Below, in pieces: positions 1 through 20,543 of a DNA stretch of 20,543 bases. The stretch covers positions 1,033,992-1,054,534 of the forward strand of contig KL197721.1 of the NCBI GenBank assembly GCA_000697665.1, written 5' to 3'. How positions within the stretch are numbered: the stretch's first letter is position 1; each line of letters starts with the position of its first letter. This DNA is from Jaapia argillacea MUCL 33604. Its lineage: Eukaryota; Basidiomycota; Agaricomycetes; Jaapiales; Jaapiaceae. Below the pieces are notes generated by a model. The model saw nothing but the letters and a program-made list of their open reading frames with translations, made no database searches and had not been told where the DNA came from. The translations under genes were made by a program, and so were the position numbers.

Positions 1-62
1 ATTTTTTAGAATATGTTAGTGTTGTGTATAGTTTGTAATGAAGGAAGTGTAATGTAGCATAC

Positions 63-1801
63 CACCAGTATCATTGAATGAGTGTTGAAATGGTTGCTCA
101 TGCTGTTGATGGGCGTCAGCATTGCTTAAGGAACTGAACAAGACATTGTCTGCAATTGAGAGCTTATGAGTTCTGTCACTTCTCAAAATGAAAATCTTTA
201 CCGCTTTGTGAGTTATCATGCTGATCGTTCTTGATGTGAGGAAGGGCCTCAACTTGAAGTGAGGGACTCAATACTGTTTGTTTTGAAACAACATCATTGT
301 TCAGCAACCAAAAGCAGTTTAAAAATTTAGTTCATACCTTGCAGCTCAATACCTTGCAGATCAGTAGCCAATGCACTGTTGTCTTCTGAAACCGGCCTTG
401 ACTTCTCCATAGGACTCGAGAGTAGATTATCTAACCAATGTTAATGCTTGTTGTGTGTATCTTGAATAGAACCTTACTCACCATCCTCTGTGTCTTCGTT
501 CAATACATTCTTCCTCTTCTTGTGAGACTGGGATGATTCGGCAATTGATTATTCAGGTGATGGCAGCTCAACTAGGTAATTATATAGACCAAAGAAACAA
601 TTGCTTAATGTTTGAAAGTAAGAACATACTATAGCCCACAAAAAGGTGCTTGCTTTTCTTTTGTCACAAGGTAATGATGGAAGACAGCGAAGGCTTTGCC
701 CTTTCCTTTCCCTTCAATGTTCCTTTCTTTGTCTTGTCAATGAGATGGTGTTCTGATGTACTGGTACTCAGTTTTGATGTTGACGAAGATGTGTTCGAAA
801 TGGACGATAAGGACGATTTTTGACATAAGCTGCATCGGATGGCTGGTGTCTGTACTTCAATCTGTTTGAGAGCTGTGATGTGTCGTTTTGAGACTTTCTT
901 CAGATTCACAACTTGATCCTCTTGTATGTTGTCAACGTTAATGACCTCCTTGGGATTGGTGACAGCCAGTGTTCCCAACCCTGGATCAACTGCTGAATGT
1001 TCGGTCGGTTCTTGCTGTGTTTGATCATCTTGTACCTTGGCAGCATTGATCAGTGCTGCTAGCAATGCTTTAGCTGCACCTTTGCAACAGTTATCGATGG
1101 CATGACAGATTGTTTTGACAATTTGTTTATTATCCAATTCTTCCCACCACTGCAAATCCTCCCCTTTACTTGTTGCACCATAGTCTACTGGATTTATCTT
1201 CGTGAATGCCTCCCAATCTGATGATGACTGAATTGGTGAGAATATAGAACACAAAGTGTTACTCACCCAACATAAACACATCCACATTCAAATCCAGAGG
1301 ATGTTCCTGAGATTCCATCCAGAATCGTAGCTGTACTTTGTCATGCAGCATTCTGAAATACTCCTGGACCAGGAATTGGTCAAACATAGTGCTTCGCCAA
1401 TCAGGTGTCAACTGGCCCTTTGACTTTGCGGAACACAACTCATCTAGGAATGATTGCACTACTGTTGATGTGGCGAAAGCTCCGAGTTCTGGTCCATTGT
1501 AGTCACCATGTAATTCATGCCAAAGTCGAGAGGAGAGACTGATGTAGTTAGTGAACCGAAAAAGATGCCAGTAATGCTCAGGAACCAGAACATAAGCACC
1601 ATGTCCATCTTCGAATGTGCTGTTGTTGAAATTGATGGTGTCCTTCTCTATGCTGAGAAACACTGAGCAATTGATTTTTGTCAATCCTTTGTCGACGATA
1701 GCAAACTGATCATATATCTCCTTGCATGCAGATCTGAGTCGACCAGGGCTGACTGTACCTGGCCACTTGGGACCCAAGACTGTGTACTGTTGCAACACCA
1801 T
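63..1801 (-). pseudogene. Unknown multi-exon gene, 3' part, two in-frame stops
   Basis: Exons read on the minus strand are 1801-1267, 1217-630, 571-482, 430-338, 273-202 and 149-63. All five introns (49-64 bp) are GT-AG and every junction is phase 1, so one frame runs through the whole model. The last donor (minus position 62) opens an intron that leaves the window, so the 3' end is missing. The first exon starts at ATG 1801, but the frame stays open a little upstream into the satellite boundary, so the 5' end may be truncated. The first ~200 residues look globular (Trp/Phe-rich, e.g. WEAFTKINPVDYG); the rest is Ser/Lys-rich and low in complexity. I do not recognise a function; it resembles an orphan family I associate with agaricomycete transposon islands (memory, unverified). 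The frame is broken by TGA at 664-666 and TAA at 549-551, both one C-to-T step from a sense codon, which argues for a pseudogene. Confidence 0.6.
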
Positions 1802-1848
1802 GTAGTTGAGCCTATTTAGATGCTTTTCTCATACTTTATGGTCAGCCC

Positions 1849-3140
1849 ATGGTGACAATGTATCATGGTATATGGTGGAGCCCACCTGGGCCCATACAGG
1901 TTTATGGATTGCACTTGATGGGTGGGCCAGTGGTGTTGATTTGTCAAGATAGGTGGGTGGGCCTAAGGCAAGATATATTGAACCATATTATTGGCCCAGG
2001 TTCATGTGGTACCTTTTGTGACTGTGGGCCCATGTCAAAGATGTATAGTAGATTATCATTGAATGCTATGAGCTCTCTGATGCAGTATGTATGGGCCCAT
2101 ATAGTGAGTGTTCAGTGCCATTCTTGTGGGCCCATCATTACTGAAAATTCGTGATTCCCTGATAAGCTCGATTTATGGATGGGCCCATATAAGGGATTGA
2201 CGGCATGGATCACTAGGCCCACATTGAATATTAGACCCATTTGTATTACCAATGTAGAATATTCAGTCTTGACTATGTTTAATCAGTGGGCCCAGAACCC
2301 TGACTAGTGTGAAATACTAATAGCTTATCTGTGGGCCCATGGTCCACAAGTATATCACATATCCAGGCCCATCTTCAAATGATTTTCTATCCTGGTAGTA
2401 GATTCATGGGCCCATGTTCCATTCATAAACTACACATATAGGCCCAGAGTACTAAATCTCTATTTCTGTTGATGGGCCCATTTTTAGCAAACAATGATCA
2501 ACTCATGGGCCCAGATAGTTCCTCCTCTTACTATGACCATGGGCCCACAGTACTGGTTTGCCATTTCTATATAATGGACCTGTACTCAAGCCTTGTACCC
2601 CACCCATGGGCCCATTATCTATGGTCTGTAATCAATCTATGGGCCTGGATTTTCCTGCTTCTTAATCATCTAGGGGCCCATATTTCATTTACAAACTGCA
2701 CATATTGCTGGTACACAATTTTTACCTATGGGCCCATGTTGAATCAGCAATGGTCAACTCATGGGCCCTGTATTCTTCTCCTCTTAATGCATGCATGGGC
2801 CCATGGTCTGGCCTCATACCCCATGCATGCATGGGCCTGTCATTAATAATCCATACTAAACATATGGGCCTAGTGTACGGGGTCTTGATTTTCATCTATG
2901 GGCCCACACTCTAGCCTTATACTGTATGTCTAGGCCCATCTTGAATAATCCATGATTAATATATGGGACCAAACTTTCCCTCCTCTTAATATACCTATGG
3001 GCCCACATTTGATCTACAGACTACATATATCACCAGAGCACTGGCACTTAATTTCAGATCCAGGGGCCTATTCAACTTACATATTATGTAAGAGCCCATA
3101 TCAATGTGTACCAACATAGATATGATGAATTCAGACCCAT
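1849..3140. repeat. Palindromic ATGGGCCCAT satellite array, ~33-bp spacing
   Basis: The core GGGCCCA, or a one-base variant, recurs in near-regular steps, for example at 2474, 2507, 2541, 2608, 2641, 2674, then 2730, 2763, 2797, 2833, 2866, 2900, 2932, 2965 and 2999. Spacing is 32-36 bp, with occasional doubled gaps where a core has decayed. The best copies extend to the palindrome ATGGGCCCAT. Spacers have diverged much more than the cores. There is a longer period of about 256 bp: the pair of cores at 2474/2507 and the spacer between them reappears at 2730/2763, both times ending in CAACTC before the second core. A pyrimidine-rich spacer (CCTCCTCTTA type) also recurs at about 2520, 2650, 2775 and 2978. 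Open frames here simply follow the repeat and are not genes. Confidence 0.9.
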
Positions 3141-3405
3141 AATAAATAAATTGAATTTGTTGAAATTTATTTCGAATTTAGTTTGAATATTGTCCATATT
3201 GGTAGATTTTTAGCTGTTTCTGGATTGACTCCAAAATATGTTGTAGTTATCTCAATTCAATCACATAGAGATGAATTGATTTCAATATTCCTGAATTTGA
3301 AAGGATTTGACCACTTATTCTTACATTTCTAACTAACCCTGGTAAGTTATTCCAATTTATGTCAATTTATATTAATTTATTTCAGTTGATATTGATTTGT
3401 TGGGA
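3141..3405. other. AT-rich spacer without genes
   Basis: This stretch is rich in AATT, ATTT and TTGAAT words and separates the GGGCCC array from the next repeat block. It holds no convincing coding frame, splice pattern or RNA gene. It could be a degraded transposon remnant, but nothing in it identifies one. Confidence 0.5.
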
Positions 3406-4260
3406 TGGACATTTATTGCAGACTTTCTGGCAGACATTCCGGCGGACATTCCAGAGAAGGTTCTGGTTGAGAATGTGCATATGTGATCACTGGAGATGAA
3501 GTTCATGCAGGAATCAAACAATCTGTCTGTGATATTGCGCACTGACAAGCAATGGAGTGGACATTGCTGGTATGGGGCCAAAAGCGGACTTGCCACGCAG
3601 AACTTCTGCGCAGCGAGGCTAGAAATTGCATCTGATGGAAAGAGCTCCAAAGGAATGACAGGAAAAGTGTAGGCATTACATTGCAGGCTGTGACAGGACA
3701 AAGCAGACTTTGCAAGCGGACTTTCCGCTTACCATCCGCCTGAGGATATAGAGCTGGAATTTGAACAAAACAACACAGGAGTGTACTATTTGAACAGGAG
3801 GAGTGTAGGAATTGGGGACTGACTACCAAATGATCAGATATTGCAGGTTTTGGCAGTGCACAGTGGAGCTTCCGAGTGGAGTTTCTGCTTAACTTCCGTG
3901 GAATCGTATAGAGAGCTAGAATTTGAACAAAATTGCACAGGCGTGTGGTATTTGAACAGGAAGAGTTAAGGCACTTGTGACTGAGTATCAAATGATTTGA
4001 TCTGATATTCAAGCAGACTTTCCAAGCGGACCTTCTGCTTATCATCCGCCTGAGGAAATGGAGCTGAAAGTTGAACAAAACAACACGGAGTGTATGATTT
4101 GGATGGAAGGGGACTGACTACCAAATGATCAGACTTTGCAGGTTTTGGCAGTGCACAGTGGAATTTCCAAGCAGAGTGTCCGATAACACTCAGGGCAAGG
4201 ATGTCGAGCTGGAATTTGAACAAAGCCACACTGGAGTGTAGGAGTCGTCAACGAATATTC
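3406..4260. repeat. Four ~150-bp imperfect tandem repeats with GGACTTTCC-like motifs
   Basis: The phrase GAGCTGGAATTTGAACAAA (with variants) starts at 3751, 3913, 4061 and 4206, giving steps of 162, 148 and 145 bp. A second layer is visible at about twice that period: GACTGACTACCAAATGATCA occurs near 3821 and again near 4111, followed both times by the same CAGGTTTTGGCAGTGCACAG stretch. Between them lie short motifs such as GCGGACTTTCCGCTT and CATCCGCCTGAGG (near 3715 and 4030). The block begins with GCAGACATTCCG (3430-3441) followed directly by a second GCGGACATTCC. The long minus-strand open frames here are shadows of the repeat. Confidence 0.8.
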
Positions 4261-4322
4261 CTTATCGACAGGGATGTGGTATAACACGTTGATATTTTAT
4301 AAAATCAGAGGTATATGAATAA

Positions 4323-6104
4323 CTATTGCCCATCCTCCAACTCCTGGATCAGCTCTCTCAAGATGTTTATCTTTGACATATGCTCTTCCAAAGACCGAGC
4401 TATCCTACTGAGAAGATGCATGTCCTGGGTTGCCTTGAGGATTACTCTCTTGTGGGCATCCAGGAGATGCAGACGGGAACGAGATGGATAATCTCCTGGA
4501 AATTTCCATCCAGGCTGAGGAGGTAGCTAGGGCGATAGAGTGAATAAAAGCAATTGAACACAGAGATATCATCTCACCTGCCAAACAGATTCTTGGTTTG
4601 GAACATTTCCGGCTGGCATTGACGGTCCGGCAATATTGGAAGCGTCAGCCGATAGGTAACTTGGCCTGTCAACCATCAGAGGTGTTTGGGTGATCTTGTC
4701 AATGGGAGTGGCGGTGATGCCTTCTGATTGTCTCGTGGGGGTTCCTTTGTCCTCGCTTGCAGGGATCGAAACATGAGGAATTGTCTGAACAGATTTGGGA
4801 ATGTGTGAGTCAGGTAGCAGGGGCAGGGTTGTGAATCTGGATATCATCTCATCAAGGTCAACAGGAGCTGGAGGCAAACTTCCACAGGCGTCGATCTGAC
4901 AAAATGTAGGGTTCTGGACGGAGGCAGCTGGAGGCATACTGAGAACAAGGAGGTTGCTGGTTTTGATAGAACTTACGAGATGGGTTGGCTTGATCTTGGG
5001 GAGGCAGTCAGCTCCTCATCAGGACCATAGGATATGTACTCACCATAATAGACTGCTATGGCTCTCAGGGATGCTATCCAGCAATTGGGAAATTGAATGG
5101 GGGGTAAACGGTGAGGCACTTACCAGTTCCAAGCCAGTCTGGAACAACTGGCTGGGGTGACGCTGGACTCAGCTCCCTATGTGGCCTGTTAATTGGAGAT
5201 ACTGGAGAACAATGAATGAATATGTCATCCATAAGCTGCACGGCAGTACATACCAGAAGGCAGGAGAAGTTTATAGCGGTCAATGGGACTGAAGTCCAGC
5301 GGGGATCATGAGCTTGTTGAGGGAGCACCTACAGCCTCTGCCAACTCAACGAAGATCATGCATTGGCACTGAGTTCATGGGGGCGGTGAATCAGCCAAAC
5401 TGAGTGTGTCATTTGAGGGCATTGGGGGTCAATGAGTTGGGAGGATGGCCTGTCGTTTCCCATGTCAATGGGGGCGAGGTGTTGGACTGATATCATCCAG
5501 TGGCACGGACAGTCCAGTGGACCGAGGGAGTTTGGGTTTACCAATTTTTGGAGGTGCCTCAGACCCAATGGGACCTGGAATAAATCATGGGTGGACAAAT
5601 TGAGAGAGAACAAGATGAGGAATGGAACTCACCATTGTCTACCTCCATTGCAACCACAGTCGTACTTGGCACTGCATTGTTGGGGGCGGGAGTGCGGAGA
5701 CAGGGGGGATTGTTGACCTTCCTTCTGGCAAAGGTGATTGGTGCAGCCCCTGTAGGGATCTCCTCAGATGACACATTGTCACCTATCACCAACAATGTTG
5801 AACAAATACATGGGATTGAGAAGCAATAAGGGAGCTGACCAGTGTTATTGACATCCATTCTAGCTGGGGGATCGACATCTTGATTTGTGAGGGGAGGTAG
5901 TGGTGGTGCTACAGGTACGTCACTTAGTGTGTGATGTGGGGGGAATGAGAGGAACGCAATCACCAATAACTGGCAACTTTGCAATAGTTCTCCACAAAAA
6001 TGTTGGTTGAGACTGCTGGCCAACTTCAGATTTCGATGCGTTGATTTCAGGGATGGTGAAAGGCTGAGCAGGATTGACTGCTGAACTTGAGAGGGAGAGT
6101 GGTG
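4323..6104 (-). pseudogene. Unknown multi-exon gene with C-terminal coiled coil, four TGA stops
   Basis: Exons on the minus strand, 5' to 3': 6104-5840 (start unresolved), 5782-5633, 5574-5254, 5201-5124, 5073-5044, 4994-4977, 4927-4578 and 4526-4323. The introns are 49-58 bp with clean GT-AG ends; one has a perfect CTGAC branch point. Phases agree at every junction downstream of the first exon, including through the 18- and 30-nt microexons, which is strong support for the model. The product is Pro/Ser-rich for most of its length, and the last exon encodes a 67-residue tail with a heptad-like helix (about the last 40 residues) ending at TAG 4323-4325. The frame is cut by TGA at 5465, 5429, 5375 and 5306, all in exon 5574-5254, and the first exon needs a one-base shift near 5930. 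The family is not recognised. It lies divergent to the plus-strand gene beginning at 6296. Confidence 0.55.
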
Positions 6105-6295
6105 CTGTAAAAAGGAGAATTCTGATCAGCTCACAGTCCGCCAGGAATGACCATAAGAACTCATTATTTGCCAACAGCCACCACCCTGTGCAGAGTTGTC
6201 CCCACCACTTGTCAACCATCTGTGCTGTTGAGCTTGCATCTCACAACCTTCACTGTCAATGTTTTACATCGTACCAACCTCTCATTAAGGACAAC

Positions 6296-8957
6296 ATGGC
6301 TGGACGCGACATGCAAGAACTACATGAGCAAGTCATGTACTACTGCCAGCGGATTCTCTGCGCCTATGAGGCACAAGCACAGCGCTCAGCTGGGATCAAC
6401 AATGCCACGTTTCTGACAAATGTTGTCGAAGAATGGGTGTGTTTGCCTTCATTCTCACCAATTCTTCTTATTGAGAGATTTTAGGACCATATGAACGAGG
6501 CTAGAAATGCATATGCCGCTCTGAGTGGAGGCGCACCACCCATTCCCAGGCTCATTCAAAGTTTCGATGAAGAAATCACCTCTGAGCCAGCCAAACAAAA
6601 TTTCCTGCGGGCCTCAGCTGATGATCCTCGCATCCCATTCATGGAGAATACCCCAGAGTCCATCCCTCCCAGCATTGACCTTGGCAAGAATCGATGGTGG
6701 GAGGAGCCAAGTAAGTTGTAGTGCTGTTTGACTGGGTGATAACATCTCATTTTCGATTTCCAGAGCCTACTCATGAAGCGGACCCTGATGAAGACAGAGA
6801 GCCAGAGATCGATGGTGCGCTTCAGTTTACGTCTCCTATTTGTTTACATGTCTAAGTTTGGCAGTTCCTCTGAGGTCTGTGTTGAAAGAATCAACCTCCG
6901 AAAGCCTTCCTGGATTCGCTCGAAAGAAAAAGGCATCCCGATCCAAGGGGAAGGGAAAGAGCAAGAAGGTGGTCATCGAATCCCCAAACAAGAAACTCAC
7001 AATCACGATCCCACGAGCGACGAGCGTTGAATCTAGAGCAAGTGCTGCTGTGTTGGATGCACGAGTGACAAGTGTTGGCGCTCAATCAGATGCCGCCATG
7101 TCGGATGGTGCTGTATCAGAGGCAACAACCGACTTTACCATCGTGGACCAATCTGACACTGAGGGAATGTACAACCATGTCTTGACGGCGAAGGAGAAAG
7201 CCAAGATCACTGTGTATCAGGTATGTTTACTCATATATGGAAGTCTCCCTCTAATGTGATACATCTAGGCACAGCCCCCCTGCCACCACTGCAGGGATAC
7301 CGATAAGGCCTGTGTTTAACTTAATGGCACGAGGTTGATTGCTTGCCTCAACTGCAGGAAGCTCCATAGGGGATGCACAAACAACAACACCATCACCAAA
7401 TTGCTACTCACAGCTGAAGAACTCGAGGAGCTAACCGTTCAAATGAGGAGATCGAAGCGCAGAACTCAGAAGTCTAGGAAGATGACTCAAGAAGCATCCC
7501 CGCCTCCTCCTCCAAAGCCAAAACCGACCCGTTGCAAGAGATCTCAATCAATTGTTTCAGCAACTCCTGCTCCCCCTCAGAAGTGTTCTCGCAAGACCGT
7601 TGTGTCGCAAGAATATGTTGAGGTGTCGGATGAGGAGACTCAACGTGAGTTCATTGCTCTCAACCGACTCCAGGGTCTGATTATTCAATAGCCGGCCCAT
7701 CGTCAGGAACATCCGCACATCAATTGCCTTGTGCAGCCAGTTCATCCGCACAGGTACAGCCTGTAACAGACCTTCTGGGTAAACCCTTTTCTTTTTTTGC
7801 TGGCATAGATGGCTGATTGCATGATGCGGATCCACAGGTGAGCTTGCACAATTGAGGGTGGAGATAGTGGAGATGAGGCAAGTGCAATCAGCAACACAAG
7901 CTACCCTCGAGCGCCTTCACATCGACCATGGAAGGGTTATGGCTGACAATGAGGGGATTAAGGCCTACATCGAGTCTGTCCAGAGCCTATTGCAGCGTCA
8001 TCCAGTCCAACCATCCCCAGCTCCACACTACATGCCTCCTCCTGGGTTTGTACAAACATCTCTCCATACCCCCATGCACCCGAAAACGAGTCATGGTAAG
8101 TGTCACATCAGTTTTCACATTTTGTCCAGACCTTTGAGAGGATTTCAGGGTTGGACAGCCCTTCATCATCTTTCTCGTTTGAACCCCGTCACCAGCTACT
8201 CGACAACAGCCAGGACTGGGACCTTCCACAACCGACACCCAGTCTGACTCCACAAATGTGGCCAGAAGCATCAACCCACCGGCTCTCGCCAGTTCCAGAG
8301 AGTCCGAACCCAGCCCCCCAGCAATCTTTTGTGGCTCCCAATACCACTGTTGCAGAGGCTCCGCTGGAGGTGCAGCCCACGGGACTCGCAACATCACCCA
8401 AGGCTCGCACTGATGTTTCAGCCGACATTCCATCCACAGAAGCAGGGGTTCCAGCCATCCTCCCTGCAGCAGATATTCTGGCGGATGTTTCATCCATGGA
8501 TGTTCCAACAGCGGAGCTTGCGACATCAGACATTCCCTCTGTCGTTCGAGCCACACCCTCCCTTCCAGCGGAGGTTCTGACTTTGGTAGAAGGAGCTCCC
8601 ACCAGTCAAGCAGAGTTTCCTCCAATTACCAGAGGGACACCAGCAATCACTGGAGCGGACTTTCCATTGTCTCCACAGAAAATCTCAATTCCCCTGACTT
8701 CAACTCTGGTCCGTCAAGTTGGGGCACCCAACCCATGGGTTTCGCCCATTCTGCCGTCATCCACAACACCAGTTGGCTCACCACCCATTCCTACCCTGCT
8801 GGATGTCTCTGCTCCAAGGATAATTGAACCTCCCGCCCCAACTATCTCACCGATTGCTTCTCCCTCTGCTCTGTTTGGTAGGTCCAAGCCGCTTCTCACA
8901 TTTGGAGCCAATGGACAACCTTTGGGACAGCCAGACATTACCATGGATGACGGTTGA
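6296..8957 (+). pseudogene. Eight-exon gene with Zn2Cys6-like cluster and coiled coil, one in-frame TAA
   Basis: Exons are 6296-6436, 6485-6710, 6764-6814, 6865-7220, 7269-7644, 7692-7778, 7838-8095 and 8149-8957. The introns are 47-59 bp with good donors and branch points, and the frame is phase-consistent over 768 codons (ATG in an AACATGG context, stop TGA 8955-8957). Residues 1-110 form a helical, acidic N-terminus. Residues 120-255 are Lys/Ser-rich and nuclear-localisation-like (ARKKKASRSKGKGKSKK). Residues 263-294 hold six cysteines spaced C-x2-C-x6-C-x10-C-x2-C-x6-C, which fits the fungal Zn(II)2Cys6 consensus. About 414-466 is a coiled coil, and the rest is Pro/Thr/Ala-rich. A nuclear DNA-binding or chromatin role is inferred, not shown. 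TAA at 7317-7319 falls in the loop between the two halves of the cluster; CAA (Gln) would restore it. No alternative acceptor removes the stop and keeps the cluster. Confidence 0.7.
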
Positions 8958-9050
8958 GGCAGCCAGTAAATATAATGTACACCACATAGATAAAATGAAT
9001 GATTACATGACTGGTATATAAAACATATGAATACGATTCAAACAATCAAT
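8958..9050. other. Convergent intergenic region
   Basis: Ninety-three bases separate the stop codons of two convergent genes (TGA at 8957 and, on the minus strand, TAG at 9051-9053). The stretch is AT-rich, as expected of overlapping 3' untranslated regions. No strong polyadenylation motif was recognised. Confidence 0.4.
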
Positions 9051-11356
9051 CTATGACTTCACCAAGGTCTTTCCTTGGTTCCGAGCAGCTGCACTGACTT
9101 TGTTTTTGCTATGGGTGGACTTCATCTCCTTCGATTCACCAGACTTTGTGGAATGTTGAGGCTTCCGCTCCTTCGATCTGCCAGCCTTTGTGGAATGTTG
9201 AGGGTGTTTTGCTGGTGGCTCAGCTCGTTTCTTCGCGAGGGTTGATCGGCTTGATCTGGCAGAGGGTTCCCTCATGGGCATTCTCCCCTCCTGTTCCTTG
9301 TCCTGCTTCAAATTAGATTTGGCTGCTTGAGATCGAGTGAACTTGGGACTGGGTTTGGTGGATGGTGCTATAAAGGTTAGAGATTAGTTATATCTCTGTT
9401 TGAAGGGTGATCAGTTTGGTTACCTGGTGCCTCCGCTCCTGCAGGTGGGACCTCCTGTATCTTCTCATCCTGGGGAACCATACGCTGAGCTGCTGGGAAG
9501 ACTTCAGCTCTTCTCCTCTTGAATAACCTAAATGCTGGCTGACCAGAGTTTTGTTGCTCCATCTGAAGCAGAGATTCCGCCTTTTCTGACTGAGGAGATT
9601 CTGCTTTCTCACGATTGTGTCCACTTGGTTCCTGTCTAGATTCCAGAGATCCCACGTTTGGATGGTTATCTCCGCTTGCCTTTCTTGGGGACTTCAGAGT
9701 TTCTGCTCCCTGGGCAGGACTGTCACCACCAATAGGATTTGTTCCTTGCCAACAACATGAGATCTTCATCAACTGAACATCAGATCGACGTACCTGCAAT
9801 ATTTTGTCCACCGTCTCAGAGTGGCTACTGGCTTGGGCAACAGCCTATCAATGCTTACCTTTAGGGACCACCTCCAGATCCGACTCGTCCGTGGGATTGT
9901 CTCTCAACCTGTCGGAACTTGACATACTCCAGCCAGTGGAGTCTGACTCTGTATCAGACTCCTCCACCTCACTCTCCAATTCATGTGCCCTGCGCTTTCC
10001 CTTTGCCTTGGCTGAGACCTTTTGACGAGTTTTGATCTTCTTCTTAGTGACCTTAGGTTTGATACGAGATCCTTTGGTGAGGGATGGGTCCCTCATATCG
10101 CCTTCCCTGCATCCAGAGAACTCAAAGACAACCTGGTCGTCGTCCCTTCGACGTGACCAGTGTGCAAGGAGAGCCTCCGATGACTTTTGTCATATGTGAG
10201 AGGGGTCGTTGAATTCAAATGATTCAGGGTAGTATTCCGCATCTAGGAAGTGGTTCAGATTTGATTTCAGTTCGGCCCAGGGAACCAATGCTTTGGGGTT
10301 GTGGGTAAAGCGTCCTACTCAGGAGGTGAGCCATGACCAGATGAAGTAGAGTTGGACTTACAGTAGTGTTTTGTTATGAAGTCCTGGATTATCGCCTTCA
10401 TCAGCATATTGCGAGGGGGTGCATCAGAGTCAAAGTCAGGGAGGACAGGTATACCATTGTCATCCACCATGACCTCCAATTTCATCATCTGCTTCCCATC
10501 ACCCTCCCCTGTATCCGCAAACACCTTGTCCTGGGCCCATTGCATGAAATGCTTCAGGGAGATCTTCTCTTCCTTCTTTTTCATTGCATCAGTAAATGCA
10601 ACCTTTCCCGCCTCCAAAAATTCATCCACACTGAAATTGAGTCAGCCTTCATCTGGGTATTGTGTAGATAATACTCACACCCATGAATCCATCTGCCCAT
10701 CCAGCCTCTTGAATGCTCCCATCGCCACAACCACAGTCCCACATTGCTTCCACATAGCTTGAATGAACTGCTTGGTGAGTTTAATCACCTTCTCCTCCGC
10801 CATCCTAGATATCTGACCATCAGTCAGGTGAAGGAATACCCTATAGGATGGCCAACTCACTTCTGCTGGCTTGCCGCTGGAGGGGCTTCACTGTTCCACT
10901 GATCAGCAATCTCAATAAGTCAGTCTATCTCCACTGGGGGGAGTTCAGCCTGAACTTCAGCCGTGATTCTCTTCAGATTACCCAGGAATTCCCGACTCCC
11001 AGCCTTCACACCAGTCTCATCCTCAGTCTTCTCCCTCAGCTCCTTCTTATGCTCCTCAGCATGGACCCGCCTCCAGTCCACTTGTTAGTGAGCTGGAAAT
11101 CCTCCTTCTTCTTTGTCAGTGAGCTTTGTATCCAGGACAGTGGAGGACGACTCGCCCTTTTAAATTTTCTTGCATCCTGTTTGTCTAAGGCCGGCCCCTT
11201 GGCCTTCTTCCTAGCCTCGACCAAAGAAGCATATGACTGTTTGATCACTTGAGGGCGGGTTTTTCGATCTCCAGCCTTGAATTCAGGAAGTGCATCCCTG
11301 AGATCCCTAATCTCATCTGCAGTAAGCTGAATTGTGGAGGTTTTTTTCGATGGCAT
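9051..11356 (-). pseudogene. Seven-exon orphan agaricomycete family, three TGA stops and one frameshift
   Basis: Exons on the minus strand: 11356-10861, 10804-10679, 10630-10362, 10314-9859, 9814-9794, 9744-9424 and 9367-9051. Introns of 44-56 bp keep phase throughout. The N-terminus (MPSKKTSTIQLTADEIRDL) begins a basic helical region; a WNSEAPP segment follows, then AMWKQCG and FITKHY segments. I recall this order from a large family of uncharacterised agaricomycete proteins common near transposons (memory, not a search). The C-terminal half is charged and Ser-rich, with a Lys/Arg tail carrying a 14-residue repeat. Damage: one base appears to be missing in the G-run near 11067 (frame leaves a KWTG motif and resumes at VHAEEHKK); TGA at 10920-10922; TGA split by the intron after 10362; TGA at 10190-10192. 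Each TGA fits a former CGA arginine. No enzymatic function is visible. Confidence 0.7.
9119..9202 (-). repeat. 42-bp coding repeat (14 residues)
   Basis: Two copies of a 42-bp unit ending in GTGGAATGTTGAG (plus strand, ends near 9160 and 9202) encode the 14-residue pattern PQHSTKxGxSKExK in the basic tail of the minus-strand gene. A weaker third match (STHSK) follows at its C-terminal side. The unit length is a multiple of three, so copy-number changes would keep frame. Confidence 0.7.
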
Positions 11357-11505
11357 TATAGACATCAGTGAGGCAGGTGAATGACAGTTGAAGGTGTGTT
11401 GTGCAAAGCTAAGTCGACCCATAGCAATTGGTTCAACTTCGGCTAACTGATCCATCACACAGCTTCCTCGCCTACCTCATTGGCTCCAGTTCTGCTACAA
11501 TCTTC
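11357..11505. promoter_or_regulatory. Divergent promoter region
   Basis: The 149 bp between two divergently oriented start codons (minus ATG at 11356 and plus ATG at 11506) must hold the promoters for both genes if both are expressed. ATTGG, the reverse complement of CCAAT, occurs near 11426 and 11479. No TATA box stands out. Assignment rests on position only. Confidence 0.35.
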
Positions 11506-11870
11506 ATGGCACATCCTAGCTCATATCCAGAAACCTTTCAGCTGTATCTCAATCATCGACCTCATTTGGTGTTTCGAGCTCAAGAGACGTTGAGATCATT
11601 TCCTCAGTCCTTCCCTTCAATGGATCACTTCTACCAGTGGATTACTTGGGCAAACGAACTGAAGGTATGAGTCAATTCATAGTCCTCACAGTCATCCCTC
11701 TCACATGAACATAGAATGAGCATACTTGCCATGAGAGTGCCATTCGCTCCTTCCTCATGCCCGTTCCTGTTGAATCATTTGATTGGCAGGGATATGTGAA
11801 TCAGGTGGATGCCTGGTTCACAGAATACCATCGCCTGGAGGAGCAAGAGCACGAGAATATGGGAGAATAG
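11506..11870 (+). CDS. Small intact two-exon protein, 104 residues
   Basis: Exon 1 is 11506-11664 (53 codons) and exon 2 is 11715-11870 (51 codons plus TAG). They are separated by a 50-bp GT-AG intron in phase 0 with a GTATGA donor and a CATAG acceptor. ATG 11506 is the first in frame in a TTCATGG context. The product has no signal peptide, membrane helix or cysteine motif. It is rich in aromatic residues (Phe, Tyr, Trp) in both exons and ends in an acidic tail (LEEQEHENMGE). I do not recognise the family. Unlike every larger gene in the window it has no premature stop or frameshift, but its short length alone could explain that. It is divergent from the 9051-11356 gene and upstream of the Tet-like gene on the same strand. 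Confidence 0.6.
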
Positions 11871-12372
11871 ATGTTAGAGCAACCGGGAGCGGCCCTGTGA
11901 GTCAGCTGGAGGAGTGATACTGGGTCGGTTATGCATAGATTAGATGTTCATTAGCACATCCCATGCGATTCAATATTATGACTAGCTGAGATTAGAAATA
12001 TTTTGGTTGTCTGCCTCTATTCATCTCTGGTTTGAAGGTATGCAGAACATTCACATATACACACTCTTAGTGTATTGGACAAGAATGGTGTTCAACGACT
12101 TGAATGGTCTTGAGGACTGCGTATCCTAATTGTGGACACCGTCAGCACGTGAACTTTACTGACCTGTTCCTGAGTCACATCGTCAGTGACACATTGAACT
12201 CTCAATATCAACAAACCTACAATGAGCCTGGAAGATGATCTCTCTAGCTTTGAACCCTTGGTTTACACCGAGATTCTCTCCTCCTATCTGTTGGATCGTT
12301 TCAAGGAGAGGGTGGAAATTCAACGAGGATTGCAAGACCCCACAACTCAAACAACTCCTCCCCTCAAGCTCA
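11871..12372. other. Intergenic region upstream of the Tet-like gene
   Basis: About 500 bp with no convincing exon. Short open frames start at 12222 and 12235. The frame from 12235 is in phase with the Tet-like first exon, so the N-terminus of that protein could extend upstream of the ATG chosen at 12373. The rest presumably holds the 3' untranslated region of the small gene and the promoter of the next. No repeat was noticed. Confidence 0.4.
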
Positions 12373-13527
12373 ATGTCGAAATTGTTTGCAAATGTGAATA
12401 CATTTTCAAAGAAATTTTCTACACATACTCTAACAATGGTATGTGTTTCGCCCATCCCTTCATTGTACAACTTAAACAGGTACACGTAGTGGGGGTGACC
12501 TGGGACGTGGAGAGATGTGGGGACAGGATTGGCAAGAGGCCTTCAGGACTGAATGAGAAGACTGAGGCAGCCATTGCAAAGGAATACCCTCCCATTTCCT
12601 ACCCAGGAATGACGACTGTGCAAACCAAACCACTCACGGTGGTGGATATGAACAACAAGATCATCCTCTGGTATCTTCCCAAGATCCTTTCTCCGAAACG
12701 GCGGGTGAGTCTCACCCTGCACTCCATATTCATTAATCACCTGTAACTTCTGCTGGATTCAAAGGGCATTATGTGGGAGTCGACGAAACACCTGGATGCT
12801 CTACTCTGCAACAACTATCTCACAGGCTCTCAAGGGAAGGGATGGCGAATCAACCACACTCTGTTCAGAAGCCCCTCCTCTTGTGAAGTCCATCCAGGGT
12901 TCTTGAATCTGTCCCCAGCATGGTTCCACCAGGGACATCAGGTGAGTGATTCTACCCCTCATCTCACCCTGGAATGTAAGTGCTAAATCATCTAAAGTCA
13001 CGAACAGACTCCCTGCATGTGTCTGCATCCCTGCAGGCAGGGTCCCGCACTCCCAGCGTCAATGCATGGCTGAGGGATTTCTACCAGAGCAGTGCTTTGA
13101 TGAGTGCAATTTTGAGAGTCATCCACCTGAAGCTGTATGATGCAGGAAGGTTAGCCTTGACCAGGCTGATGTTGGAGGACGAGGAGGTCTGGGATGTTCT
13201 CAAAGTGTGGCCATCTGTCTACAGTGTGATGTCGGTCATTTCTAATCGCCTCACTCCACCACACTGGGGTACACAATCTCAGGCATCATGGTACGATCTT
13301 CTTGCAACTGTCGGACTGTATCCTGATGCAGTCATGGAATTACCTGGACTTGGGCTGAGGTTGAGCTATATGTCAGGACGGTTGTGGGGTTTGCTGGGAT
13401 ACTCCTTTGTCACTGTGTGCCCGCCAATGATGGTGATCGAATTTGCTACGTCTACTATATGAGGGACAAGGTCCATGAGAGGGAGGATGTTGGGGCCCCT
13501 TCCTGGATGACATTGGATTTCTATTAA
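12373..13527 (+). pseudogene. Tet/JBP-like 2OG-Fe(II) oxygenase, inactivated
   Basis: Exons 12373-12438, 12480-12704, 12765-12941 and 12998-13527 join in phase 0 across introns of 41, 60 and 56 bp, for about 332 residues after one base is allowed for. Landmarks I associate with the agaricomycete Tet-like oxygenase family are present in order: IILWYLPKILSP near the end of exon 2, LNLSPAWFHQGH at the end of exon 3, then SVISNRLTPPH, WYDLL, MELPGLGLRL and, in another frame, RICYVYYMRDKVHER. Active members should oxidise 5-methylcytosine in DNA using Fe(II) and 2-oxoglutarate in the nucleus. Two lesions stand out: the iron-binding HxD site reads His-Trp-Gly (13262-13270), and about one base is missing near 13376, shifting the frame just before the second-histidine region (His codon 13411-13413). 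Stop TAA is at 13525-13527. The KDZ transposase follows immediately on the same strand. Family assignment is by motif recall. Confidence 0.75.
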
Positions 13528-13682
13528 TTGTATATACTCATCCCAATGTCTTGTGCCTTTGAATGTGAACATTGATCCCAACTACTTGTAACATCCGTGA
13601 CACCACTGCACACGTGTTGGCTCCTCTACTTTATTGCATCATGTCTCTCTGATGAAGGCTCACAAAGCAAAGTCCAGTCAAG

Positions 13683-16558
13683 ATGTATCAGGAAAAGGAG
13701 ACATCTAGGGGTACTAAGCTGATAGGAATTGCTCTCACGAGGGGACAGGAGACTCTGAGTAGGCCTTCTACCCTGAAGACAGTGTTTGACCCACTGGAGT
13801 ACCCAGAGTTTCAACGAGAGGACATTGAACCCTTGGCATTACTGAAAGCAAAGGTCAGTGACCCCTATCCATAGAATGAAGTCGTCTCACACCTCCTAGT
13901 CTCAACAAGACTATCTTAGGGATTGGATCCCATACCGAGATGAGCATCTCAATCATCTACTTGCTCGAGAAGCCCCTCTGGGGGAATGTCTCTGCGAGTG
14001 TAGCAGGGAGGGATCCTGGAGATGCAAATCTTGCTGGGGACAACCACTGTTCTGTTACGACTGCATTTGAAGGTCCCATTTTTGAATTCTGTTTCATAGG
14101 GTTGAGAGATGGGGTGGCGAGGGATACTTTGCACCATCATGGCTGTCTGAGGCAGGAATACGCCTACATTTAGGCCATAGTGGCAAACCTTGCCCAAGCA
14201 TGAACAATACCAACATCAGTGGTCAGGGAACAGAGGAGGAGAATAGCGATTTTGAAGACATCCCTTTTCTAGGGACCTTTGGAGGTATTTGACATATGTT
14301 TATTGTGGACTCCAGCGGCATGCATTCCCTACCTGTCGTCTTTTGTGGTTGCCACAATACATTGCGACCGGACCTCCAGCTCCTGGATATGGGTTTGTTC
14401 CTACAAGGAACACCTCAGGATCACAATTGATCATAAACCAGTGGGTAAAGCTGAAATATATCCACACGCCTTACCTCACATTTTGCAGAAATCGACTTGT
14501 CACAACCACAAAGCGGTGAATCAGGCAAACTTGGACTGTCACAACTTGGATGCTACAGGTATTGGGGCAACAGTATGTGCAAGACATGGCTGCTTCGCTC
14601 CCCATTGTGCAGTTGATTTTCAAAAGGGAGAGAGGCGAGTCTTATGATTGTCGGTTGGTCACAGGTCCTGATCATCCCCTAGACAAATGAACATGGATTA
14701 TTTGTTGACTCAGGCCGTTGTCTTAACAGTCGGAATACTCCGACTCATCATGGTCTTGTATGATGTAATGTGCCAGTATCACATCAACCTGCGAAAGTGA
14801 ATTCAAGAGAGCCATCATTTATCTGATGCTTGGCCCTCAGGAATCACAATGAAGAAGGGCATTGGGCTGTTCCATGTTCATGGACATCAGAACAGCTGCA
14901 CCCCAAGGTTCTCACCAGACTATATTGTAGGAGCCAGCATGATCAATGGAGAAATTGTGGAGACAACATGGCGACCGCTTGACGAGATTGCAGGATGCAC
15001 ATGGACAGTGACAACATCTCATCGAGAGGAGACACTGAATGACCACATGGGCTTCTGGAATTTCATGAAATTTGTCAATATGAGTGAGTATAGACTTTTC
15101 ACTAATGGTCAAATCCTGATCTTCCCTAGCCTCATCCATCTGCAGGAAGTTGAAGGCGGCTTGTGAAGGGGTGGGGTCAAGCACAGAGGCATTCGAAGAT
15201 TTGGATGCCAGGATAGGTGATGAGATCAGAAAGGAATGGCTGGAGCAGGAGCAAGACACATACCGAAGAAGATTGGATGACCCTTCAGTGATGGATATAT
15301 TTGATGTCTCATCAGCCAAAGGTGAGGTCATTCACCCTCCAGACAGTCCAGTCACAAACCCTATCATATCGTGTGGAAAGAAGGAAGTGCAACTTGAGCT
15401 AATGACCGCTGAGCAGCCGATGGGTCTGGTCTGTGGAACCATTGCTTGGCTCATCGAGGGGTTCAAACTACAGGAGTCACAGTCCATTGCCACGTTTAGT
15501 TGCAGAATGCTGGCTGATAATGCAACAGGCTGGACCTCGTGTCCTTCATCCGTCAGCTGGGCAAGAAACCCTCCCTCGAGGACAGGCTCGAGCATGACAT
15601 TCATGAATATTGCCTGGGGGCTCTGACTTACCTTGGGCACTCCATGGACTCTACACGTTCTGATGGTGGGGCGACTATCAACACCAATATTGATAAGTTC
15701 AACATCATGGAGGATGACGACCCAACGGAGTTTTTGGGGCGATACATTGATCCTGAGGAGTCATCTCCTGTGGAACAAGCCGTACTTCCATTGCCATCCA
15801 GTATGGGATTGGACGAGTGTAAGAGGAGGAAGATTGGGAAACTCGCTGAGCTCGAATTGCAACTTCGAATAGGCCAGGCTAATGACGCACTCCATGAGAT
15901 TAGAATTGCCCTGGGACACAAATCATTTCTATTCCGGACAAAGGTACGGCCAGGTAGATCTCAGAAGAAGACCCATGCTTGGTGAGAAGTAACGACAGTG
16001 GAGGACGCCGTAAAACGGCACGCCAGGGTTTATGTTGCATGTCAACAGGCAATGGTTCTCCTTGGAGCCAATCAGGACATATTGGATCGTTTCCAGGTTC
16101 TGCCAAAGGAGCAGATGAAGGCGGAGACATTTGTGATTGACCCAGGAATGTATGGCCAGCGTTACACAAGGCTTGCATGGTTCTGGTCTCTGGACGTAAA
16201 TAAAGTGGATGATCCTTACATGGTGGAATGTAAGTCAATCCCCAACATATTGAATCCAGCACTCGCTCACCATTGATCAGTCACAAGGGTCCATTGGTTG
16301 AGAGCAAAGTGCAAATGGGATAGGTGGCAGGAAGAAGCAACCATTCTTTACCACGAGATCAACTGGACTATCCAGTGGTTCAAAAATCAATCCAGAATCT
16401 GGCTGGGGCGAATGACCAGCAGTGGAGGTTCTGATCAGCAGGGGAAACGATGCTATGCAGCTAAGCAGGCTGCAATGTGGCAGAAAATGGCAGAAAATGG
16501 TGAGACTGCATTTGAGGCAGTTTGCAGTGACTTTCCAGCAATTAGGGGATGGAAATAA
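13683..16558 (+). pseudogene. KDZ (Kyakuja-Dileera-Zisupton) transposase with CxC2-type cysteine cluster, degraded
   Basis: A first exon (about 13683-13853) joins across a 46-bp intron to an exon starting at 13900. It encodes WIPYRDEHLNHLL and then cysteine pairs (13987-14064) typical of the CxC2 domain, followed by HRVERW, LHLGHSGKPCP and SSGMHSLPVVFCGC. Next come CHNHKAVNQAN, CARHGC, FQKGER, YDVMCQYHINL (Asp codon 14762-14764), GIGLFHVHGHQNSC, GEIVETTW (Glu codons 14951 and 14960), TTSHREETLNDHMG, GQANDALHEIR, LAWFWSLDV and VHWLRAK, in the order expected for KDZ transposases. Later introns are 15084-15129 and 16230-16280 (51 bp). Stop TAA is 16556-16558. Lesions: TGA at 14068, 14083, 14290, 14798 and 15983; frame changes near 14390, 14640-14680 and 15530; and an apparent internal deletion around 14400-14490 where about 200 residues of the core are absent. 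DNA cut-and-paste by this copy is therefore very unlikely. Confidence 0.88.
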
Positions 16559-16689
16559 TCATTTGAATGTTGTATATAAGATTTAGCTCATCTTGTTATC
16601 CCTCCAACACACACCGACTTGTATGACATGGTGCAACGTTTGGCCCATGGTTCGTTGTTAGGCTCTAAGCCAATTCAAAAGGTCCTGAG
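16559..16689. other. 3' flank of the KDZ gene
   Basis: A short non-coding stretch between the transposase stop codon and the start of the repeat block. It presumably holds the 3' untranslated region. No terminal inverted repeat or target-site duplication was recognised. Confidence 0.35.
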
Positions 16690-17620
16690 CTGTGAGCAGA
16701 CTTCATGTGTGGAAGTTCCCCCTGAAGTGGCATCTCTGCCTCGGAATATCTACCTTCAATATTGTGCCTTGGAAACTCCCAATCACCATGTCTGCTTCGG
16801 AATGTCTGCCTCAGAAACTCCACTTCTGCAAGTCCGCTTCAGAAAGAACCCCTGACACGGCATGCTCCAGGCACAGCGTCCGGTACAGTGTTTTGAATTG
16901 CAGCAAATGCTGCAGAATGTCACACTTGGAAACTCCTCGGAAACTCTGCCTCAGAACCTACAAACAGCGGGCCACGGCAATGCAAGTTCGTCTGGATTCC
17001 CTTCACTCTGCCTGATAATATTATCTATCTGATACCACGTCAGCTGTTTTGGAGGGAAGTGCAAATATGGTCACGGTTCGATCATCCCCATATCTTGCCC
17101 CTGCTTGGCTTTGCACAATTTGGTGATTCCCAATTCTTTTTGATTTCCCCCTGCCTCCAAACCTCGGTGATGGAAGTTCTGCCAGAGGTTTTGAGGCAGA
17201 GTTTCTGAGGCGGCAACTCTGACACAGCATGCTCCAGGCACTGTGTCCGGTGCAGTGTTTTGAATCGCAGCAAATGCCTCGGAATGTGATACTTGGAGAC
17301 TCCTGGGAACCTGCGCATCGGAAACACCGCATTGGAAACTCCGCCTCGGAAACTCTGCGATGGAAGTTCCGCCTCACATGGGAGCAGTGTTTTTAATTGC
17401 AATGTTTCTGTGCGACTTCATAGGTCCAAATACAAATCATTTATTGCTATCAGGGACTTCTGAGGTCAAAGGAACAAGACAGTCTGCTGATACAGTGGGC
17501 AAGCCAGGCCCAGTGATGGGCGGACCCTTTGAGACGGAACCTCCGTGGCAGCACTTCCGAGGTGGAGTTTCCAGACAACTGCAGACAACTGAATTCACAG
17601 GAGTGTTTACAGCTCCAAAG
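16690..17620. repeat. Repeat block right of the KDZ gene: short CGGAA-type motifs and a ~367-bp duplication
   Basis: Short motifs such as GGAAACTC, GCCTCGGAA and GGAAGTTCCGCCTC recur dozens of times. A longer unit is present twice: CATGCTCCAGGCAC starts at 16861 and again at 17228, followed in both by a GTGTTTTGAATYGCAGCAAATG stretch and a cluster of GGAAACTCC words, an offset of 367 bp over roughly 110 bp of good similarity. CGGAATGTCTGC (16798-16809) is the exact reverse complement of GCAGACATTCCG at 3430-3441 in the left repeat block. In contrast, CTTCCGAGGTGGAGTTTCC near 17565 and ACAGGAGTGT near 17597 match left-block phrases (near 3870 and 3775) in the same orientation. Open frames in this block are repeat shadows. 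Confidence 0.75.
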
Positions 17621-17819
17621 ATCCATGATTCCCTCCTGTCAGCAAATTTTGGGACAAAAGCAGCAAGACAGTGGCAATTGCATTTAGCGAGCCAGCCCCA
17701 AAATGGATAGGAGCAATCTCGGGGCTTGGAATTCCCGCGAGAACTTCCTGCGACCTCTGCATCCTTCCACACACATCTTCACCACATCATACTTTAGTTT
17801 CTCATCCAATACTGTCGAA

Positions 17820-19206
17820 ATGCCCAGGCCTATTCCTGCGTTCAAGGCGGACCTTCTTTCCACCCAAGTTAGCTATGCTGTTCAGAGGTTGGAGTACCAT
17901 CTCTATACTGCTCTCAAGGCACTCAGAAGAAGGAGTGATCGCAAGATGCTCAGCTCACAATTCGCTTGAGCACGAGCCTTTGATATGGAGCTGGTTTGTG
18001 ATCTCTTTTCTTGAATACAATTCCCGCACAATGGCGCCATCTTACCATCGACTAGGCTCCTGTGTATTGGTTGTTGGGCATGTCCTATGTTTCTGGACAC
18101 CTGCGGCATTCTGCTTTGATTCAAGCCATGTGGACCGAACTGCAGCAAGCAAGTCATCGCTTCCATGAGATTAACCTGTCAGGGTATCATCCAACTCCTG
18201 TGGACGATGACCCCCTGCCCAAATGGTGGCTCGCTGCAGATCCTCGCCAGGGTGTTGCTCAATTCTGTGAAATGTTTCTGCCAGTTGACCTTGATGAACA
18301 AAAGGTGAGCTGTCCCTCCCACTTGGGTCAGGGCTGATCCTCCCCCATAGAAACCGCCCATTAGCAAGGAGGCTGAGCTCTGCGACTTCCAGAACCTTGT
18401 CAACCTTTATCGCCACTTAATTCTGAAAGTACGTTGCTTTCGTCACACCATATCCATTCCTAACGGCAAGTTACAGGAACTTCAACACGATGCAGTGGAG
18501 GACGACACCAATTCAGATCCGGATGACACCGATTCAGATCCAGAAGACACAGTGGATCAGCTCGACTCTGATGAACCTATGGAGGAGTCCAATCCCACTC
18601 CACCTCCTTTGAGAGCTGATGGAGAAGTTGATGTTCTGGTGAGTCCATGTCAAGCTTCATAAAACGCGCCCCGCTCATGACGTTACAGTCGGATGGACGA
18701 AGTAGTACATCTTCATCCTCGTCAAATTCAGACAAAGTGCAGGTTTTTGTACGTACATTGCAAAGTCTGTGGAATCTAGTGCACTCATCTTACAGCAGTC
18801 AATTCATGGGGCGGGATCTCCTTCTCCATCGAAGGTGGGCAGGGCAGCAGAGTCGTCAGTGAGTCGATAGCACCTTTTATCAATGATCTCTCACTCATTC
18901 ACTAACAGTCTAATAATGGGTCCGATGGATCTCCGTCCCCATCTTTGCCAGGTGGACCTGGGGAAAAACAAGTGAGTTGACCTGACCTTCTCAAAATATC
19001 TTTAACTCAGCCCTCCATAAGCCCAACAATGCAACAAATCTGTATCCAGTTAGTATCTCCTCACTTTCTGGCTCTCCCCTCCTCTCAATTCCTACTACTA
19101 GGCGGACAGAGTCCTTGATGATGCATGGGATGTGGCGCTTGGTGTCCTCCAGGTACTGTTTTCCCATCTTCCATTACATTCCCTGACACAACCACAGTTT
19201 ATCTGA
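17820..19206 (+). pseudogene. Ten-exon gene with Ser/Pro/Asp-rich tail, one TGA stop
   Basis: Exons are 17820-17993, 18056-18304, 18351-18428, 18477-18638, 18689-18742, 18796-18858, 18909-18971, 19022-19048, 19102-19152 and 19198-19206. Every exon length is a multiple of three and every intron (45-62 bp) is phase 0, giving 310 codons. The N-terminal ~140 residues are helical and globular (VSYAVQRLEYHLYTALKAL; APVYWLLGMSYVSGHLRHSA). The middle is acidic (repeated DTNSDPDD and DTDSDPED), and the tail consists of very short Ser/Gly/Pro exons. TGA at 17967-17969 interrupts exon 1 and fits a former CGA. The 62-bp intron 17994-18055 has a weak GTTTGT donor; reading through it instead would need two frameshifts. 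No function is recognised. The last two exons are the least certain. Confidence 0.6.
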
Positions 19207-19279
19207 CATCCCACAGCCCATTCAGCCAAATTACCAGCTACTAACAGTCAACCGACATTACAATAAGAGTGATACTAAC
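19207..19279. other. 3' flank of the Ser/Pro-rich gene
   Basis: Non-coding spacer after the proposed stop. An alternative acceptor at 19216 would extend the previous gene in an open frame to about 19393, but that extension runs into the GCCGACATTGGCC repeat and reads as unlikely protein. Confidence 0.3.
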
Positions 19280-20090
19280 GAGCCAGCCGACATTGGCCGA
19301 CATGGCATGGGCGCCCAATGTTCATTGGTCAGCCGACATTACATTCATATCTGGTCGGCCGACCTTGATTGCTGCAGCTCGGAAAAGGGTTGGTAGTGTT
19401 GATAATGAGACAGCCGACATTGGCCAGCATCAAGTGGCTGGGTGATATTGAATCACTATCCATTTGGGCGCCCATAGCACTTATTGTTGTGCAGCCAACA
19501 CAGGAATCAGCCATTCAATTTGTGGTGATACATGGTCAAGAACAGCATCCGTATTTGATGCCACAATGCCTAGGATGCAGGCTACATGTATACCATCACC
19601 CATCCAAAGCAATGAAGGCTTCTGGTTGGAGAATCATCATCTAGTGGTAGAGGAAATGGCTATTTGATGTCTTGTGATAATTCAGGGCGCTGATAGTATC
19701 CCCATGCAATTAGGCACCATCCGCAATATGTGAGGGCGCCGATGGTAATTAGTTTGGATCTAACAGCTTCTTGGGCGCGGATTCATGATTCAAGCTTATG
19801 TATATGTTGAAAATGTTTGTTCATCACCGAATATGCTCTTATTTGTGTATGGAATCCCAAGGCGCGATTTGGTTCCCTGAATTCTTTGAAGTTCAATTAT
19901 ACTTTGCTGAGAAGAGGCGCGCATAGGCATGGCATAAAACATGGCATTCATCATAAGACATATCTATCTTGGGAACATGGAAACGTAAGCATGAAGGACA
20001 TGCAGGGATATACAGTAACTAAGAATACAATAACGGTGAGGCGCCCAAAGACCAACCAGTAATTGCACAGAAGGAGAAGGCGCCTTAGGG
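19280..20090. repeat. Second array: GCCGACATTGGCC words and spaced GGCGC(C) cores
   Basis: AGCCGACATT occurs near 19287, 19332 and 19412, the first and last continuing as GGCC. Two copies of the palindrome-like TGGGCGCCCA lie near 19308 and 19467. GGCGC cores then follow near 19686, 19735, 19774, 19861, 19916, 20040 and 20079, with gaps that are roughly one, two or three times ~41 bp. The spacers are AT-rich and show no coding frame with splice support. It looks like a more degraded counterpart of the left GGGCCC array but with a different core. Confidence 0.5.
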
Positions 20091-20543
20091 CTCATGCTCA
20101 AGCATGGTCTCGAGTGACTGGAGGCGGTCGCGGAGGTTGTCGATGATTGTCTGCTTGGTGGTCAGATCCTCTCACAGAGCGTCAACATCGCGCTTGAGGG
20201 CGTCATATTGGAACTGATCTTGATTCAGCCAGTGGACTGTATAAAGTGTATGAGCAACATACCTGTGACACAAAGCTACCACCTCCAGGGGCTGTATTAA
20301 GTGTCTGTTGAATGAGGTTAGCATATGACATAATTTGGGGATAGACTCATGGAACAACAAGAATTGAGGAGGAAACTATGAGGAAGGACATCAGCATAGG
20401 AATAGAATCCAGACACGGATGACTTACGACCAGGAATCACCTTGGGGTCTGGATAGTCAACGGCTGATTCAGTGCTCCATCAGATATTGCATCAAGTAAA
20501 TGCTACGGAGGGCACAAGTGATGACTTACTTTTGACCGAGGCC
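20085..20543 (-). pseudogene. 3' part of an unknown gene with C-terminal coiled coil, two TGA stops
   Basis: Exons on the minus strand: from the window edge to 20530, then 20463-20428, 20375-20263 and 20213-20085, ending at TAA 20085-20087. The introns are 66, 52 and 49 bp, all GT-AG, with the last having a GGCTGAATC branch point. Phase agrees across all three. The last 43 codons form a charged coiled coil (FQYDALKRDVDAL, then EDLTTKQTIIDNLRDRL) interrupted by TGA at 20172-20174; a second TGA lies at 20347-20349. Both would be arginine as CGA. Upstream, a VDYPDPKVIPG stretch is encoded by the 36-nt exon. The gene continues off the right edge, so neither its length nor its family can be judged. 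The short coiled-coil C-terminus is reminiscent of the gene ending at 4323, but I see no sequence identity. Confidence 0.55.

Follow-up and report, generated by a model that had tools for sequence, protein, structure and literature searches.

Premature TGA codons in an apparently dead KDZ element with a TET/JBP gene from Jaapia argillacea are consistent with deamination at CpG

Introduction

A stretch of 20,543 nucleotides from the basidiomycete Jaapia argillacea MUCL 33604 (contig KL197721.1 of assembly GCA_000697665.1; C13:1033992-1054534 in the numbering used here, where C2, C3, C28, C65 and other C-numbers denote contigs of the same genome), hereinafter the window, contains genes interrupted almost exclusively by TGA codons. 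Most of the window is occupied by a repeated element that, judging by its sequence, is the dead copy of a KDZ DNA transposon with several genes, one of which encodes a TET/JBP 5-methylcytosine oxygenase. The question raised by this locus is why its stops are so one-sided. A first-pass annotation, made from the letters alone, had named 18 stops (16 TGA, 2 TAA), all of which are present at their places and on their strands, and had pointed out that each TGA can derive from an arginine CGA. Based on comparison within the genome (43.7 Mb, 95 contigs), the best explanation appears to be that CpG was methylated in silenced repeat DNA and then deaminated (probability about 0.88), the methylation itself being what we infer.

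Premature Stops and Their Counterparts in Related Copies

The element, its genes and the two flanks that also bear stops are arranged as follows.

1..1806, minus strand: left flank, gene of another repeat, with TAA at 549 and TGA at 664; 91% match to C70 and 69% to C23
1807..19213 (approximate), no strand assigned: multi-gene KDZ element with a TET/JBP gene, apparently dead copy, delimited by block matches to other copies and by common ends
4322..6019, minus strand: gene A, multi-exon, with TGA at 5306, 5375, 5429 and 5465 (frame conservation)
6299..8957, plus strand: gene B, with a cysteine/histidine cluster and TAA at 7317 (frame conservation)
9052..11352, minus strand: gene C, multi-exon, with TGA at 10190 and 10920 and one split over an intron at 10362/10314 (frame conservation)
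12222..13547, plus strand: TET/JBP oxygenase gene, no TGA in the counted segments (Pfam Tet_JBP, match to CcTet)
13683..16558, plus strand: KDZ transposase gene, with TGA at 14068, 14083, 14290, 14798 and 15983 (Pfam KDZ)
17820..18638, plus strand: gene F, with TGA at 17967 (frame conservation)
19214..20543, no strand assigned: right flank, another repeat, with TGA at 20172 and 20347 in putative coding sequence; 91% match to C3 and 94% to C73 over part

The element is about 17.4 kb long, and related copies, with blocks of about 67–87% identity, were found on five other contigs (C28, C65, C80, C47 and C66). Reading frames were recognized by comparing synonymous and non-synonymous differences in sliding windows, in all six frames and against each copy, a ratio of about 0.1–0.4 being taken as the mark of a gene part. 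Exons were drawn by hand as 37 segments, with GT..AG introns set from the sequence and the translations.

A mechanical count over the 37 segments gave 12 TGA, one TAA and no TAG in 3,194 codons, which are the same 13 single-exon stops that had been listed for the element before, and no others. The TGA split over the intron at 10362/10314 is not part of this count; here T in the window corresponds to C in both C28 and C65, and the C28 codon reads CGA. With the split codon included, all 14 element stops in exons or exon joints (13 TGA and one TAA) are supported by the copy comparison, some strongly and four moderately. The TGA codons at 5306, 5375, 5429 and 5465 lie in one exon, which has moderate frame support and good splice sites at its bounds.

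A related copy carries CGA at 10 of the 13 element TGA sites (9 of 12 without the split codon), while the other three face only other sense codons. For the left-flank TGA at 664, one copy has CGA and another has TGA; opposite the TAA at 549 stands CAA. Both right-flank TGA codons face TGA in the sole aligned copy and are uninformative. In total, CGA occurs in at least one related copy for 11 of 16 TGA (10 in the element, one in the left flank), or 11 of the 14 informative ones, so that the proposed derivation of each TGA from CGA has the backing of the copies at these 11 sites.

The stop bias extends through the related copies, which share the same mode of decay. Among the 10,546 codons of the six copies taken together are 41 TGA, 5 TAG and 2 TAA, and another copy has CGA opposite 28 of these 41 TGA; a TGA common to several copies enters this count more than once. 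Six-frame searches of the whole genome, counted by hand with intron stops included, gave 42 TGA, 11 TAG and 10 TAA in 71 rows for the KDZ domain, and 10 TGA, one TAG and 2 TAA in 25 rows for TET/JBP.

Substitution Tests

The codon make-up of the element predicts a TGA share of 0.26–0.28 when no CpG effect is assumed (transition weights 1 to 4). The probability of at least 13 TGA among 14 stops is then 3e-7 to 8e-7; since the copies share ancestry, this and the following p-values are guides and not exact. CpG weights of 10 to 26 lift the expected share to 0.43–0.75. Ordinary random decay, with the TGA excess arising by chance, could accommodate the TGA codons that do not face CGA, but in view of these probabilities (at most 8e-7) and of the CpG excess described below it is barely credible, as the first-pass annotation had argued.

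The codon test was confined to codons for which the remaining aligned copies had one and the same sense codon; in some cases there was just a single such copy, and a codon may count for several target copies. CGA had become TGA in 13 of 47 cases, whereas CAA or CAG had become TAA or TAG in 3 of 279 (odds ratio 35, Fisher p 9.7e-10). In the window alone the figures are 5 of 13 and 0 of 91, respectively (p 1.4e-5).

The same preference is seen at single positions. Where two or more copies agree, window-specific C-to-T changes affect 17 of 57 CpG, 45 of 975 CpA, 17 of 732 CpC and 17 of 737 CpT, that is, 17/57 for CpG against 79/2,444 for other cytosines (Fisher p 8e-12). The first-pass annotation had proposed to look among paralogues for non-CGA codons and for the lack of a CpG excess; what was found is CGA at 11 of 14 informative sites, together with this excess. 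In three-way comparisons, CpG had changed in the window at 21/86, 33/126 and 4/16 sites, and the rates for the five other copies range from 0.08 to 0.42.

Both strands are affected, as had been claimed. The element has genes on both, and of 35 CpG sites present in every other aligned copy, with at least two such copies, the window retains 13, while 11 have become TG, 9 CA and 2 something else. These 20 changes form 14 runs against 10.9 expected by shuffling, with no sign of strand tracts (a test of weak power). Changes at CpG show no marked 5′ preference (TCG 26/87, ACG 14/55, CCG 10/43, GCG 12/47). Two familiar patterns of hypermutation were considered and are not supported: Neurospora-type repeat-induced point mutation (RIP), because CpA is not the main target (45/975 against 17/57 for CpG), and the type of Pucciniomycotina (rusts and smuts), because TpCpG is not preferred (TCG 26/87, other NCG 10/43 to 14/55).

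The expectation of few indels is borne out as well. A one-base frame change near 13375 in the TET/JBP gene of the window is absent from all three aligned copies, and two others (near 11075 and 15332), found in the comparison with C28 alone, are unpolarised. Other frame-changing differences listed are peculiar to one copy or cancel within a few dozen bases. A frame transition common to all copies at the end of the TET/JBP gene was also considered and discarded, as alignment resolved it into the one-base difference between the window and the three copies.

Origin of the TGA Bias

Observed/expected CpG is 0.41 in the element and 0.38 and 0.59 in the two flanks; the C12 stretch with an open KDZ copy has 0.68. 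Higher values come from an insertion nested in the C28 copy (0.84) and from a 5-kb control stretch (0.94). The genome contains five matches over the cut-off to the PF00145 DNA-methylase domain, on C4, C5 and C2. The CpG excess among changes, the low CpG content and the methyltransferase-domain matches together fit with CpG methylation of silenced repeats followed by deamination. Once the element was silenced, the host would have methylated its CpG sites, and the 5-methylcytosine would have deaminated spontaneously, converting CpG to TpG on either strand and arginine CGA to TGA. TAA and TAG would be rare because the cytosine of CAA and CAG is not in a CpG and would be largely spared.

Several observations weigh against this explanation. 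Three of the 14 informative TGA have no CGA in any copy, and the TAA of the element (7317) arose by transversion. Among the same 47 CGA codons, 4 became CAA as compared to 13 that became TGA, where equal numbers are expected if both strands deaminate; over all CpG the two outcomes are in balance (11 and 9). CpA is about twice as changeable as CpC or CpT. The window changed 0 of 2 CpG in one TET/JBP stretch (few informative CpG), and in C66, the most distant and worst polarised copy, the CpG rate (0.219) is hardly above that of CpT (0.198). Normal CpG content is represented by just one 5-kb stretch (0.94), of unchecked gene content; a second control stretch consists of N.

An active repeat-directed CpG mutator, RIP-like and perhaps driven by a Masc2-type DNA methyltransferase, could have produced the stops in bursts. 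CpG hypermutation is reported in Tricholoma matsutake and Rhizoctonia, and the contrast between CGA and CAA/CAG is about 26-fold, as compared to about 9-fold for all positions, a difference that might result from a burst in dead copies. The absence of a 5′ context preference and of strand tracts speaks against such a mutator, which we consider unlikely. The larger codon contrast may also reflect a long working phase with selection against stops, after which CpG change prevailed during a short dead phase. Of the two processes left open by the first-pass annotation, 5-methylcytosine deamination would account for the CpG excess, and a RIP-like process fares less well, with CpA only mildly raised and neither TpCpG preference nor strand tracts.

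An extended form of the mutator proposal, rated just as unlikely, would make the transposon TET/JBP protein a counter-defence against such a mutator, so that oxygenase loss from a copy or a family would release a burst of CGA-to-TGA changes and the first disabling lesions would nearly all be TGA. If true, it would stand against the claim that RIP-like hypermutation is absent from mushroom-type fungi.

The frames are otherwise largely open and conserved, as they would be if TGA were decoded as arginine or another residue, by recoding or RNA editing, in genes that still work. Against this, CGA or another sense codon stands in other copies at 14 of the 16 TGA sites, the TGA sites differ between copies, and the window also has TAA and a frame change. 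KDZ frames free of TGA exist, and one match on C12 is part of an open frame 698 amino acids long; therefore TGA is not needed as a sense codon. Recoding is thus exceedingly improbable, on stronger grounds than the indels to which the first-pass annotation had appealed.

The window gives a single-codon view of decay in a transposon that carries a 5-methylcytosine oxygenase gene, and the decay looks like the chemistry of the very mark which the element's own enzyme is thought to remove. CGA to TGA set against CAA/CAG to stop is a simple polarised measure that could be used on all TET/JBP elements to find out whether CpG decay is slower where the oxygenase works.

Relation to Known Systems

TET/JBP-encoding KDZ transposons of Agaricomycetes were reportedly described by Iyer et al. 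in 2014. As in such transposons, one repeated element of the window contains both a KDZ transposase and a TET/JBP gene. No terminal inverted repeat was noticed in it, and its TET/JBP piece resembles CcTet. The element differs in its four further genes (A, B, C and F), in being an apparently dead copy, and in its apparent ends, which are not CA..TG and show no 7-bp target duplication. Elements of this kind (Kyakuja, Zisupton) are treated in sections of Kojima 2025 (PMC12730594). The traits of the Kyakuja lineage as in Laccaria (7-bp target duplication, CA..TG ends) were not found at the apparent ends, and the true ends may lie elsewhere; therefore, the element is classed no more narrowly than as a KDZ element with TET/JBP.

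CpG-biased hypermutation is described in portions of the reports on Tricholoma matsutake (PMC6980582) and Rhizoctonia solani AG8 (PMC4014442). The repeat decay of these Agaricomycotina shares the C-to-T bias at CpG with the window, where it is polarised codon by codon between copies; the bias of R. solani AG8 differs in being similar in genes and repeats. Neurospora-type and Pucciniomycotina TpCpG-type RIP, as outlined in parts of PMC4352252 and PMC12730594, likewise involve C-to-T changes in repeated DNA on both strands, whereas here CpG is affected without 5′ preference and CpA is mildly raised. Passages of Amselem 2015 (PMC4352252) tie CpG signatures to Masc2-type enzymes and deamination, a section of a 2025 survey (PMC12543289) places enriched RIP-like signatures in ascomycetes only, and part of PMC8889193 locates the oxidised methylcytosines of Laccaria and Coprinopsis in transposable elements. 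Among the entries listed by a limited literature search, none traces CGA to TGA in TET/JBP elements. Both TET/JBP-carrying KDZ elements and the CpG-biased decay found in mushroom-type fungi are already published; the present case adds a new, quantified example and no new system.

Genes of the Element

The conserved frames cover parts of six genes, each with several exons, which are distributed over both strands of the element. Several of these genes bear the mark of purifying selection in the comparison between copies. Frame support is strong for the KDZ gene, the TET/JBP gene, the central part of gene B and the greater part of gene C. Ratios of 0.5–0.8 are the best reached by any frame at the ends of genes B and C and, in gene A, at 5100–5850. 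The 3′ exons of gene A show strong frame conservation against C28 and C80 and weaker conservation against C65, where the best-scoring frame of the 3′ part differs from the frame used. A frame transition near 11085 in gene C, common to C28, is put down to a probable intron.

Pfam analysis gave 60.3 bits for KDZ in one window exon (cut-off 26.6) and 34.6 bits in a second, with further KDZ exons, and the CxC2 cysteine cluster, which Pfam associates with KDZ transposases, reached 26.2 bits, just below its cut-off of 27. For Tet_JBP, the window exon scored 33.4 bits, under the cut-off of 34.9, and the C28 copy 58.5 bits, over it; the window piece also matches the solved Coprinopsis CcTet (E-value, 8.9e-8). 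The cysteine/histidine cluster of gene B (7290–7390) is strongly conserved in all four aligned copies, and its product is a candidate DNA-binding protein, with no match in a Pfam search of 7320–7640.

Ends, Flanks and Repeats

The left end of the element is common to four copies (the window included) with differing flanks, and the right end to two. No target duplication was found at the apparent ends, where neither the window nor C28 has a shared 5–8-base word, and the true ends may be elsewhere. The genome comparison found no empty insertion site, as the two flanks match different repeats. The whole window had been regarded as one decaying repeat region; this stands for 1807–19213, a single element, and not for 1–1806 and 19214–20543, which are parts of two other repeats and match other places in the genome. 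At both junctions (1806/1807 and 19213/19214), the neighbouring repeats stop at the element's apparent ends elsewhere in the genome too, and nested or modular construction there is possible. The slices adjoining the window on both sides consist of N. A scan of the window for bacterial-type promoters and terminators gave nothing useful.

The KDZ gene of C28 contains an insertion of about 8.7 kb (C28:447434-456151, window point 14067/14071). Its observed/expected CpG is 0.84 as compared to 0.50 in the surrounding element, by which it is evidently a younger insert inside older, CpG-poor DNA.

The left end of the element has a distinct composition:

1807..3150, no strand assigned: left-end zone with 18 GGGCCC palindromes and CpG observed/expected of 0.07 (counts in copies)

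The rest of the window has only 2 GGGCCC, and the matching zones of C28, C47 and C65 have 20, 18 and 19, respectively. The palindromes sit mostly in ATGGGCCCAT-like sites, and the zone could serve as an array of sites to which proteins of the element bind. At 3678–4240, in a fast-evolving stretch of the element, there are three diverged direct repeats (about 108 bases each, 69–74% alike), and 16727–17357, between the KDZ gene and gene F, holds a pair of 105-base repeats together with a 26-base TCGGAA-type repeat in seven diverged copies.

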